A DNA stretch of 12,080 nucleotides. Source: Funneliformis mosseae. Lineage: Eukaryota > Glomeromycota > Glomeromycetes > Glomerales > Glomeraceae. The stretch lies in NCBI GenBank assembly GCA_910592005.1, contig CAJVPP010003274.1, positions 1 through 12,080 on the forward strand, written 5' to 3'. Every line of letters begins with the position of its first letter. Position 1 is the first letter of the stretch. Below, in pieces: positions 1,794-12,069 of this stretch. Position numbers and translations under genes: made by a program. The notes beneath the pieces are model-generated. The model ran no database searches. It was not told where the DNA came from and worked only from the letters and a program-made list of their open reading frames with translations.

Positions 1794-4154
<2,361 letters not shown>

Positions 4155-5641: not shown

Positions 5642-8600
5642 ATGCCACCTTTACAACAACAGACTCAAAAGGAGAAGCGCCAAGGTCGTCGAACAAATCC
5701 ATATCGACGACCGCCGAGGCTGACTATGGTCGGATCGGCTACCAATGCTACTTTCGAGTTAATGGGTTCACAATACGAATGGGCTCAAGCTCAACAAATT
5801 CATTCAAATACCGTAAGTGTAATAGTATATTTTTAATATATTTACAGTATTTCTGTTTTAAAAGAAAAAAAAGGGCGTTTTTTTTTTTTTTGTTCATTGA
5901 AATACTTAATAACATTACTTATTTCTCTTTCTTAAACCTGAAAAAAGGTTGAAAATGAGTGGCAAAATGCTACTTCGAGCGAAAATGGGGACAACACAAA
6001 TGATTATGACGATAATGGGCAGCCATCTTTTAAGCAAGTGAACGAAACCAGCGAGTTGGCGATAATGGTTGTTAATTCGGATCAGAATAGAAAGAAAGCG
6101 GACAGAAAACCTAAACGTGGAGCTGGCATTATTATGGAACAAGAAGGAAACGAAAATAAACGTCGCAAGATTACTCACGATAACGATTATAATAATACAA
6201 ATCTCATGATAAATGGCAACGAGACAACCGAAGTTGCACCTATGAATAGTATTGATATGGAGACTATTGGCATTGAGTCCTTCAATGCGAACAATGTGAA
6301 TACGACGACAACTACGTTGACAACAGTGACACCTACAACGGAATCAAATCCGACAGTTACTAATACTAAAGTAGCTCGTAATAAAGCCCGAGGTTCGAAT
6401 TCTCGCTCACGCGGCAATAAGTCAAGAACGCGAAAAGTTTCTTCAAATACGATACGACAAAATCCGACGTCTACTCGAAAATCTCGTGGTAAACGTGGTC
6501 GCCCCAACGTTGCGATATCAGGAGCAAGTCGAAGCGACAACATTCGTAGTAGTGATCAAGGTGAACAACATGAATTGACATCAAGTGTATCTCAACTTTC
6601 TGTTGCTCCGGTTCCTGATGTGGCCGAACCCGAGCCGAGATCAACGATAGTATTGCGAAGATTTCTTGAGTCACTTTGTGCAAGCGAGCAGGTGTTGAAC
6701 CGCGAACGATTGCTCCGTCTAGGGACCTACTTGCTTGATTATTTTGTTTCTCAGGCGTGGTGTCGTCCTTTTGTTAATCCTGAAGACGAATCGGCATTCT
6801 TCTATCGCTCGGTCATTTCACGCTTGATGGATTTGACAACGGTCGAACATAATCTCTGGTCAGGAGAATATGATGGTGCAATTTCGAAATTCTACGATGA
6901 TATAGCCCAGATTATGTATAATGCCTTCAAATTCCATCCTGAGGGAACCATAATATTCAACGAAGCGAATTCGATGTTGGCTTGTTTTGTTGAAATAACA
7001 ACGAAATTTTCTAAACCTCCACATGACTTGAATAAATTCGACGATGAACTTGCTATGGTTGGTTCTAAACTACCTCACGAAGAATTCAGCGACGTTTGTG
7101 GTGTGGCACCAAACCTTGAAAGGTAAATGTTCTCAATAATCTGTTACTAGAATTCGTGTTTTACAGTCGTTATAATTCCTCCTTTCCTTTTTCTTTTTTT
7201 TTTTTTAAAAAAAATTTTATTTAATAATTCTTATTTGAATGAATAATGTCATACATATTTTCTTTAAAATAGTCGAATATTTATAGTACCTTTATATTCG
7301 TTCCGCCAAATCTCTAAAAGCGGAAGCAATGTTGCAAAGCTCCCCCAGGCTGCTGCTGAACGTTTAGATCCTATGTCGCGTCCTCTTTTTGACGTATTTG
7401 AACGTAGAAACATCCCACCAGTAAGATTTCAACCTACGGAAGCGAATTGTAATTTCGGACGTCTGTATATCACGATGGGCGCACAGAATATTAAAAATTG
7501 TAGAGATGAACGCAATGCAATTCTTGTAATCGTAAAGGATGTGGCTTATACACGCGGAACGAATCGATTGCGGTGCAGTGTGATCATTGCGAAACCGTTT
7601 GGTGAGCTACGCGAGCTCGATACGATTGGGTTTCCGGAATTACAAGATGCTCGATATTGGACTCGAGTTGCTTTTCTCAGCAGAGTAAACCTTGATATCG
7701 CAGTGGGCTCAAAATTCTTTGATAAATACTTGCGAACTCCTTTTAAAGTATCAGAATACGATAAAGAAATTATTACACCGCAGCAGCACGAAGGGTTTTT
7801 GGCAGCTTTGAATTTGCGACAAGGTCACTCGTCACCCGAGGGGCTTTCTATCTGGCAGCGACTAGTTATTGGCGAGTATAAGTTTCTTTTTCTTATTATC
7901 TTATTTCTTTGATTATAAAGAAGAATGGGAAACTCGTTTTTCTTTTTATATTAATTCTCTTAATTTTTCATTCGTTTTGCATTTATAGAGGCGAACAGGG
8001 TAAACGTACCAATCGAGAGCTTCGAATCTCTCGGAAAATCAATACAAGTCGACGCAGAAGGATTCTTTAAACGAGTTTTTCACGTTCCTGGTGATGAACA
8101 ATATGTCGTGCAAAACTTCAAAGAAATTTCAAATGATACTCTTGAGACCAGGATTAGGGAAGCAGTTTGCTGTTTGTAAGTTTATAAAGTTGTTAACTTT
8201 AATATTATGATATATATAATTAAGCGTGATTATATCTTACTCTTTCTTTAAAAAAAAAAAAAAAAAAAGAAAAACGAAAGGAGTCCCTCATACCGGTCAA
8301 ATCCGATCGATTTACAAAGATGACATAGAAGACGAGCTTGTCGGCCTTTCCATGGTAAGGTATGGCTATACGTTGAAGGAGTACGCCTTCAATACTCGTG
8401 CTCCACTCACAGGTGAGCAAAAATTCAAGCTCATTCATGATATGATAAAAGGCATCAAAGCGCTTCACGACGCTGGATTTGCACATCGGGATCTCTCCGA
8501 GGTTAATATGATGGTAAATTGTACTACCGAACTTTTGTCGGATGGTAACGCCAAACCTGAACTCGTAATAATCGATTTCGGGAAAGCCGAGTTTATCAAC

Positions 8601-9274
8601 CGTGATGATGTGTTGGCGTAAGTGTATTATTTTTTTCTTAACCTTTTTTTTTTTGGCCTAATATTTATTATAAAGCCATAAATGCTTATTGAAAAATCAA
8701 TAATATAGTTGGTCCGTTGGCGAGGTAACAAACGATAAGTTGGAACATCTTCCACGGATTAAGACGGTGCCAGATCATGGCTATAAATTGTACAGGTAAG
8801 CCAATGATATTTAATAATTTTTTGTATCTTTATATTAACTTGTGATGGTATTCATTATGATAAATGTAATTAATGAATTATTATTATTTAAATAGGTCCG
8901 CGGCAACACTCCCTCGTACTAAAAATGATCATGCAATTCTCCCGTACCCAATCGATCCTTGCTCTGAAGATGTATATGCAGCTGGAATTTTAGCGTGGCG
9001 AATCTTTTCAGGCCAAGCACCTTGGGGAGGAATCCTTGATACCGATCTTAAAAATCTCAGAGAAATCGTATCGGATCCCGTCAAAATTAAATTCCATACA
9101 GAAAAGAATGTTAAAGGGATGAGATCGCGAGAGTTATTGTTAAAGTGTATAACCGCGTCTCCGCAGGATCGTTGTACCGCAAAAGAATTGCTAGATTGGC
9201 TTCTACAAACCAAAGATGAATTGATTTCCGAATGGGCGATCTCTGGAAGAAAGAGAATAAGAAAGCAATTCTAG
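5642..9274 (+). CDS. AT-hook / bromodomain / protein-kinase fusion protein, seven exons
   Basis: Exons are 5642-5812, 5948-7122, 7273-7875, 7999-8175, 8270-8617, 8709-8795 and 8896-9274, all GT-AG and in frame, giving 979 aa and stop TAG. Residues 1-290 are basic, disordered and rich in N, T, S and R, with an AT-hook core KRGRP at 239-243. A bromodomain spans about 292-412 (PF shelf, MDLTTV at 351-356, NAFKFHPEG at 382-390), with His387 at the acetyl-lysine Asn position. Residues 449-650 match nothing I know. The kinase domain covers about 657-960: HRDLSEVN at 781-788, DFG at 811-813, DVYAAGILAW from 879, and the late conserved Arg near 946. The usual VAIK lysine reads Gln688 and the glycine loop is weak. 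The role is likely nuclear or chromatin-linked; substrates are unknown. The start could be later (Met29) or in an upstream exon, because the frame is open upstream. Confidence 0.85.
7876..7998 (+). other. Intron 3 of the bromodomain-kinase gene, acceptor ambiguous
   Basis: The donor GTATAA follows GGC GA at 7871-7875. The stronger-looking acceptor TTTATAG at 7988 does not keep frame with this donor. The next CAG, at 7996-7998, restores frame and gives IGE|VNVPIESF at the entry to the kinase domain. The alternative is a GC-AG intron from 7872 (GCGAGT) to 7988, which would give VIE-ANRVNVP. I prefer the canonical GT-CAG pair. The two choices differ by only a few residues. Confidence 0.65.
8176..8269 (+). 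other. Intron 4 of the bromodomain-kinase gene with 19 A just before the acceptor
   Basis: The donor is GTAAGT at 8176. A pyrimidine-rich tract (8235-8249) is followed by 19 consecutive A (8250-8268) and then G, so the splice AG is the end of the A-run. Only this AG keeps frame (CCL|KTKGVPH). The later AG pairs at 8279-8280 and 8282-8283 shift the frame with this donor. A pure A-run in place of pyrimidines next to the acceptor is unusual. Confidence 0.7.
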
Positions 9275-10526: not shown

Positions 10527-12069
10527 TTAATCGTCTTGACCTTTTAAAATAAGTTTAAATGAAAAAGGCATAAATTTTCTGCCTGAACCTTCATAAAATT
10601 TATTATTGAATTCAACCCTGTCATAAAGGAAATAAATGATTATTTAAAATAGAGGGGGGAAAAAAAAAATTTTAAAAAAAAAATATATATACCAATGCAA
10701 ACGTAATGCGTGTAAGAAAGCGGATAATCCTTCCATAAGCAATAAGATACCAACAGTCAAAACAAACCATAAGACTGCTGTTATCACGAGTAAGATAAAC
10801 CCAACTACTCCTTTAAAATTTATAGTATTCTTCAGAGTCATATCGTATAAGACAGCAGACAATTCTAAATTATAGCAATAATAAGAAAATGATTTTTTTT
10901 TTTTGAAATAATAATAATAATAATAATAATAATAAACTTACGAGCATGTGCTAAACTCAGAGCCCATAATCGTAAATAACTTGCTGTATTAGAAATACAA
11001 CCCAAACAGAATTCGATCGTATGAATGACCTGATGAATCATAACCTCTCCGAAATCAAACTCTTCTTCCTCATGCATTTCCTCTGCTACTATTGCTCCGC
11101 CGTGCTCATTATTCTCATCTGTAGATATACGTGTAACGTCAGCTTGCGGATTATGATATCCCTGTGCCCGTATTTTCTTATACTCACGACGCAAAACGAA
11201 AGGCTTCACAAACAACATCCAAGGTATGCAGACCGCAGCTATTAAGAGTAATGCGAGCTGTACAGTCCCCTATTATGATATTAATAATAAATTCAATTTC
11301 TTAATAAATATAAAAAAAAAAGTCGATTAATGGTATTTTAAAACAAAAAAAAAAAAATTTTTCAAAAAGCAACCTGTCCAGGATATAACTCAGCATTTTT
11401 TTCAACGGAACCAGGTTGTAAAAACATATAAATTAACATATTTAATAATCCAGGTGGACTGTTCCTTGGATTTCCGTTAGCATCAGGTTCGTACCAAGGT
11501 ATGGACCACTTATAAATGATCGTAAAACACAGGTATCCAAAGATACATTGCATAAATAATATCTGAGGGATGAATTCGGCCCAGATACTCAAAGTTTTTT
11601 TGAAATGAATGTAATTAAATATTGAAAGGAATATACCGAAACTCATCTAAAATCAAAAAACAAAATTATTGTAATAATCATAAAGTTAAATTTACAAATT
11701 TTAATAATGATTATCATACCTGAATAACACCAAGAATTATTGACATTTTCATTTTATAAGAATTGGTGAACAGTAAAAAGTTTTCGGTACCATGCCATGC
11801 CTATAATTAAAACATATAAGTTTAAAATACTAAGAAAGTACAAAATTTCACTATATACAAAGATAGCTAACCGGATCGACACCAATTGGGTAAACACCAG
11901 TTTGCTTGCCAATTTCTTTTCCACTATCGGGGTCTAATGTAAACTCCCAACCAGATTTTGTCAAGTGCATAGTTCGAGAAAAGACATCGTTATAGATCAA
12001 CCCAGTGTAAATTGAAAATAAACCCATCAAAAGAATAATGTATCGACCACCAAAAAACATTTCAAAGAT
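10527..12069 (-). CDS. VPH1: V-type proton ATPase subunit a, C-terminal part (5' end beyond window), six exons
   Basis: In coding order the exons are 12069-11872, 11800-11720, 11646-11374, 11269-10942, 10864-10693 and 10617-10527, all GT-AG and in frame: 380 codons plus TAA. The first exon here begins at an acceptor (TTTTAG at 12070), so the rest of this roughly 800-aa protein lies to the right. The sequence follows the membrane half of yeast Vph1: [24 protein letters not shown], then [14 protein letters not shown] and [16 protein letters not shown]. Both membrane arginines are present, encoded at 10970-10972 (equivalent of yeast R735) and 10701-10703 (R799), as are the His and Glu equivalent to H743 and E789. 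This is the stator subunit of the Vo sector that passes protons to the c-ring and acidifies vacuole, Golgi or endosome. The sequence does not settle the Vph1 versus Stv1 paralogue. Confidence 0.95.
10907..10933. repeat. (AAT)9 microsatellite inside a V-ATPase intron
   Basis: Nine perfect AAT units (ATT on the coding strand) lie in the 77-nt intron 10865-10941, immediately after the donor GTAAGT. They fill about a third of the intron. Read through, they would add a run of Ile and a stop, so they are not coding. Confidence 0.85.

Follow-up and report, generated by a model that had tools for sequence, protein, structure and literature searches.

A bromodomain and protein kinase fusion family in Glomeromycota, Mucoromycota and Mortierellomycota, likely with WNK-type kinase chemistry

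The locus and its gene model

The stretch of DNA analysed here (the window) comprises 12,080 nucleotides of contig CAJVPP010003274.1 from the Funneliformis mosseae (Glomeromycota) assembly GCA_910592005.1, and contains on its forward strand a gene of seven exons whose predicted product carries a bromodomain and a protein kinase domain in one chain. Judged by sequence comparison, this fusion is real and belongs to an inherited family rather than being a splice artefact, since 66 of 109 sequences share its domain order. The protein is likely to be a chromatin-associated Ser/Thr kinase with WNK-type chemistry, from a family encountered to date only in Glomeromycota, Mucoromycota and Mortierellomycota. 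Its exons are as follows.

5642..5812, forward strand: exon 1, with the start codon at 5642
5948..7122, forward strand: exon 2, with a basic low-complexity N-terminus, the AT-hook and the bromodomain
7273..7871, forward strand: exon 3 (end previously placed at 7875)
7989..8175, forward strand: exon 4, kinase N-lobe (start previously placed at 7999)
8270..8617, forward strand: exon 5, with HRDLSEVN (residue 783) and IDFGK (residue 812)
8709..8795, forward strand: exon 6
8896..9274, forward strand: exon 7, kinase C-lobe and stop

An earlier, sequence-only reading of the window had proposed that the seven exons join in a single frame, and this holds: joined with the two joints of that reading and with exon 5 starting at 8270, they give 979 codons without an internal stop. 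In 1000 base shuffles of a 982-codon version there were always at least 39 stops, with a mean of 60. Of the two splice calls on which the fusion had been said to depend, the joint 7122/7273 was kept, while 7875/7999 is likely slightly off and 7871/7989 fits the relatives better. At this joint between exons 3 and 4, all eight other Glomeromycota sequences in the alignment have (E/Q)A, about four residues and then (V/I)P. Because they carry the residues that it adds, a GC-AG intron at 7872-7988, giving 981 amino acids, is probably a better fit than a GT-AG intron at 7876-7998; the frame is the same in both cases. Homology to the Glomeromycota relatives persists across the exon junctions in the portion of the alignment inspected, which took in part but not all of the linker. 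The deposited F. mosseae protein, here P0001 (876 amino acids), which is the top match of the window protein, lacks several in-frame pieces from the window range 7123-9274 that are present in relatives, among them some 16 residues where exon 3 begins and part of the kinase C-lobe.

Domain order and distribution of the family

Three protein searches yielded 108 sequences (P0001-P0108). Since P0001 is the deposited model of the window gene itself, the full set of 109 sequences, which includes the window protein, counts this gene twice. The domain order was scanned with our own profiles, seeded from some of the collected sequences. A bromodomain, a middle domain and a kinase domain were found together in 66 of the 109 sequences, in identical order in all 66, and the remainder had either the middle domain and the kinase (16 of 109) or the kinase only (27 of 109). 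The condition named in advance as one that would refute the fusion, homologues that are always two separate genes, therefore does not hold. The earlier claim of an AT-hook, a bromodomain and a kinase in one chain is likewise borne out, with an RGRP core at residue 240 and Pfam matches above the cut-offs for both the bromodomain (45.9 bits against 21.7, best stretch 320-398) and Pkinase (best stretch 701-822). The conserved middle domain, and a His at the acetyl-lysine Asn position of the bromodomain, had been passed over in that reading.

Within Glomeromycota the named hosts belong to Funneliformis, Glomus, Rhizophagus, Gigaspora, Racocetra, Ambispora, Geosiphon, Paraglomus and Entrophospora. 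In Mucoromycota they are Mucorales and the Endogonales species Jimgerdemannia, and in Mortierellomycota they include Podila. The phylum was looked up for Jimgerdemannia, Podila and Funneliformis, and the other genera are placed where we take them to belong. Among the named matches listed, from searches in which candidates had to share words, there was no relative beyond these three phyla, and a lineage-specific invention, as suggested earlier, is thus upheld as far as the searches reach. A kinase tree of 87 sequences (without P0001, P0066, P0072 and slices shorter than 330 residues) gave starred support to the three groups, with an arbitrary root and a possible false join of long branches at P0013. 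Some Mucorales have more than one copy, such as Blakeslea trispora with P0029 and P0044. In the F. mosseae genome one copy was found and, apart from weak kinase matches, no paralogue, in an assembly of 4154 contigs that may be incomplete. The names assigned automatically to P0010, P0014, P0060, P0096 and others (histone acetyltransferase kat2b, receptor-interacting serine/threonine-protein kinase 1, SIK kinase 3) are misleading and obscure the family.

The kinase domain

8057..9235, forward strand: protein kinase domain, residues 672-969 (Pfam PF00069, E 3.6e-13; fold match of the orthologue P0003)
8069..8071, forward strand: Lys676 at the third Gly position of the Gly-rich loop (E-G-F-F-K), WNK-like, in 98 of 98 covering sequences
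8111..8113, forward strand: Gln690, probable beta-3 (VAIK) lysine position (V-V-Q-N-F), in 101 of 101 covering sequences, by the register of the model strands; sequence registers conflict
8159..8161, forward strand: C-helix Glu706, in 106 of 106 covering sequences

By Pfam the window protein is a member of Pkinase, and the model of its orthologue P0003 has the kinase fold. The structure comparison matches listed for the kinase are ordinary kinases, and the top sequence matches in the PDB, among the best 60 of 886, are DAPK1 and TTK. Motifs were counted without P0001 in rows chosen by an HRD-type pattern, which matched 108 of 109 sequences (P0002 is truncated). Among the sequences that cover the respective position, the HRD Asp (107 of 107), the catalytic Asn (107 of 107) and the DFG Asp (106 of 106) are invariant. 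Because these residues and the C-helix Glu are retained, the kinase is probably active. It is not, however, the conventional HRD/DFG kinase that had been described. The Gly-rich loop is degenerate, with A-x-G-x-x-K where GxGxxG would be expected: the middle Gly is kept in 98 of 98 sequences, the first is replaced (by Ala in 77, Ser in 17, Val in two, Thr in one and Lys in one), and the third position holds the invariant Lys. The second residue after the HRD motif (HRD+2) is Ser or Ala, and the beta-3 Lys is probably gone.

The register of the two strands is central to this reading. In HMMER the beta-2 Lys of the family pairs with the third Gly of CDK11B, and in MAFFT it falls on the third Gly of PKA and on the WNK1 catalytic Lys (PKA and WNK1 sequences as we know them); as an alignment result, the beta-2 register of this Lys is firm. 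On beta-3 the family has the motif V-x-Q-x-F, with the Gln in 101 of 101 sequences, preceded at two residues by a Val (100 of 101) and followed at two residues by a Phe (101 of 101), and the position three after the Gln is occupied by Lys (57), Arg (43) or Tyr (1). The AlphaFold2 (AF2) model of P0003, made from an alignment of 48 sequences, has its folded blocks mostly above 80 in predicted local distance difference test (pLDDT), and places beta-2 at 747-752 and beta-3 at 755-763. Across the beta-2/beta-3 hairpin of canonical kinases, the VAIK Lys sits opposite the third Gly. Because the turn between the strands is so short in the P0003 model, Lys747 would lie opposite residues 760-761, and Lys764 would fall outside the strand. 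Given this strand layout and the alternation of the invariant V, Q and F, the Gln is probably the VAIK residue rather than the later Lys or Arg, and the beta-3 Lys would have been replaced. For the kinase N-lobe, no usable register was obtained from hhalign against TTK or PKA.

The bromodomain, AT-hook and middle domain

6485..6505, forward strand: AT-hook-like RGKRGRP, residues 237-243, with the RGRP core at residue 240
6698..7018, forward strand: bromodomain, residues 308-414 (Pfam PF00439, E 5.6e-12; family profile)
6935..6937, forward strand: His387 at the acetyl-lysine Asn position (N-A-F-K-F-H), by alignment to 5n13
7274..7840, forward strand: middle domain, residues 450-638, with a YTH/EVE-like PUA-type fold, by structure comparison only (AF2, Foldseek, VIA)

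In the bromodomain, FYDDIAQIMYNAFKF matches the alpha-B pattern described in PMC3326523, having the D and the N and an aromatic residue before the docking residue. The window bromodomain does not have the Asn that anchors acetyl-lysine, but a His. Across the family, the bromodomain profile matched 58 of 94 scanned sequences (the set without P0094-P0108), with His at this position in 33, Asn in 24 and a gap in one, the truncated P0090; the window protein and P0001, being the same gene, are both in the His count. All named proteins of the Asn type are from Mortierellomycota, and all named ones of the His type from Glomeromycota or Mucorales. Thr and Tyr are given as possible replacements of this Asn in the same paper (PMC3326523), and His could still donate a bond. 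Because His replaces the Asn, the ligand or the affinity of the bromodomain has probably changed in the branches of Mucorales and Glomeromycota, as far as sequence can tell. An AT-hook-like motif lies N-terminal to the bromodomain in two Glomerales genes, that of the window and P0002 of Glomus cerebriforme, and in Mucorales and Jimgerdemannia an AT-hook-like RGRP is found near the C-terminus (P0010, P0011, P0013, P0014, P0017, P0029, P0048).

The AF2 model of the middle domain has a pLDDT of 85.4 and a predicted template modelling score (pTM) of 0.84. Foldseek gave YTH/EVE-like matches for it, none with an E value below 0.001. Pfam recognised YTH or EVE in none of ten middle domains up to E 10, and neither did sequence comparison with the PDB. 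The only conserved Trp of the middle domain is at position 130 (74 of 80). A separate YTH protein of F. mosseae (C3620:7081-7631) has W-A-S-T and V-W segments, and when the two were compared by eye, the middle domain had no counterpart of either. With no sequence match and with these segments missing, which we take to hold the tryptophans of the YTH aromatic cage, membership of the YTH family was rejected. A match of one of the ten middle domains to PF23527, an Apicomplexa microprotein family (E 1.7e-4), was taken as chance, as were three further families with one middle domain each (E 0.08 to 0.22).

Proposed mechanism and alternative explanations

In the mechanism that we propose, the kinase domain would fold as a eukaryotic protein kinase, and ATP would be positioned by a Lys moved to the third Gly position of beta-2, as in WNK, instead of by the beta-3 Lys. 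The AT-hook, the bromodomain and the PUA-like (YTH/EVE-type) middle domain may hold this kinase on chromatin, where it would phosphorylate nearby chromatin or transcription proteins. Several observations weigh against this. The His in place of Asn weakens the claim of histone reading for the window protein, and AT-hook-like patterns occur in just 22 of 109 sequences, and at differing ends. No bromodomain was detected in 43 of 109, many of which are short or marked partial, while some may be kinase-only genes. At HRD+2 there is a Ser in 104 and an Ala in three of 107 sequences, unlike the Lys of most Ser/Thr kinases. The P0003 model is ligand-free and has a whole-chain pTM of 0.47, and most of the sequence alignments of beta-3 (gap-free ones by HMMER with CDK11B, by three settings of MAFFT, and by hhalign with CDK11B and that WNK1 sequence) assign the VAIK position to the Lys or Arg found three residues beyond the Gln. 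Taken at face value, these alignments would make the lysine swap an illusion, with that Lys or Arg as the true VAIK residue and the beta-2 Lys as an extra basic residue. That Lys or Arg is spaced 17 from the third-Gly position, just as in CDK11B, which points the same way, although a branch of Mucorales is shorter here by three residues. We still regard such an illusion as rather unlikely: the Lys/Arg position is variable where the Gln, Val and Phe around it are nearly invariant, the HMMER alignment with TTK has the Gln as the VAIK residue, and the modelled beta-3, which starts two residues after beta-2 and ends at the Phe, hardly permits the other register.

The degenerate Gly-rich loop, the probable loss of the beta-3 Lys and the Ser or Ala at HRD+2 in all 107 sequences could also mark a nucleotide-binding pseudokinase, one that binds ATP at a rearranged site and serves as a chromatin switch or scaffold without phosphorylating substrates. 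This reading and that of an illusory lysine swap do not exclude one another. The invariance of the HRD Asp, the Asn, the DFG Asp and the C-helix Glu wherever they are covered speaks for an active enzyme, as does WNK, which demonstrates that the lysine move is compatible with activity, and we consider a pseudokinase unlikely. That two adjacent genes were merged by wrong splice calls is extremely improbable. Although P0001 differs in detail from our gene model, it also holds both domains in one protein; the three-domain order is kept in 66 of 66 sequences that have all three domains, from many assemblies and three phyla, and the junction segments are conserved in Glomeromycota. On the strength of that order, a pair of separate genes and an artefact of splicing were both rejected.

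A candidate reader of 6mA

N6-methyladenine (6mA) is the dominant mark of early-diverging fungi and, in Rhizopus microsporus, is tied to open chromatin with H3K4me3 and H2A.Z, according to a 2026 review (PMC13297926). The same review lists 6mA also in phyla such as Chytridiomycota, where no relative of the family was found, and says that a canonical 6mA reader has yet to be identified in fungi. The finding of readers is called key in PMC12695648. A bolder proposal would be a triple-reader chromatin kinase, invented in the ancestor of Mucoromycota, Mortierellomycota and Glomeromycota, in which a modified base (possibly 6mA) is recognised by the YTH/EVE-like middle domain and a neighbouring mark by the bromodomain, and an independently evolved WNK-type kinase answers with phosphorylation. 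We think this quite improbable as a whole. It is made less probable because, according to the review, 6mA seems to work by way of nucleosomes and the binding of transcription factors, with no dedicated readers (PMC13297926). None of the words reader, YTH, bromodomain and kinase occurs in PMC11258239, a paper about 6mA in Mucorales. We regard the family only as a testable candidate, and it gives the field of early-diverging fungi a concrete protein for 6mA-reader testing.

At the level of titles and the beginnings of abstracts, the open-access papers searched describe no bromodomain-kinase fusion in Glomeromycotina or Mucoromycota. The modules are each known; the searchable open-access papers describe neither their combination nor the family's lysine move, the replacement of Asn by His or the middle domain.

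Neighbouring genes

Upstream of the fusion gene lies an Hsp70 gene on the forward strand (about 2000-4154; stretch 2342-3466, PF00012 with E 3.1e-184), whose start might suggest the mitochondrial type. A V-type ATPase 116 kDa subunit lies on the reverse strand at 10868-11646 (two stretches with PF01496) and seemingly runs off the end of the window.

Comparison with known systems

The closest parallel for the active site is WNK1, which is active with its Lys relocated to beta-2 (PMC4718504 and PMC1821047). The family resembles it in having a beta-2 Lys at the third Gly position and probably, by the model, in lacking the usual beta-3 Lys. It differs in the loss of the first Gly, in the fusion to a bromodomain and a middle domain, and at HRD+2. 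The catalytic loop of WNK is HRDLK, whereas the family has HRD(L/I)(S/A) in 107 of 107 sequences. Neither the best 60 of 886 PDB sequence matches nor the best 50 VIA structure matches include a WNK, and descent from WNK finds no support among these. Because the best matches (DAPK1, TTK and ordinary kinases) do not point to such descent, the lysine move probably arose independently and is convergent with WNK. If true, the WNK lysine move would have an independent counterpart here, with which the ways of rewiring a kinase active site could be tested.

FunK1 kinases (PF17667) have HRD followed by Ser, as does the present family. Weak matches to PF17667 were found in five of six kinase slices, and the relative P0061 is annotated with it in the database. 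The window protein matches only over a short stretch and below the cut-off (E 0.00065, 19.0 bits against 24.1), and its membership of FunK1 was rejected despite that annotation. From YTH and EVE proteins the middle domain differs in having no Pfam or PDB sequence match and no tryptophan segments.

As chromatin proteins, the nearest comparison is with BET proteins, TAF1 and BAZ1B, which also combine a bromodomain and a proposed kinase in one chain, and the PDB matches of the window bromodomain include the bromodomains of BDF1, TAF1 and BRD proteins. To our knowledge, BET proteins, TAF1 and BAZ1B have no canonical protein kinase fold, and their kinase domains are disputed and atypical. In the present family, by contrast, a full kinase fold is predicted and, if this is true, a protein kinase with a complete fold is here physically joined to chromatin readers.
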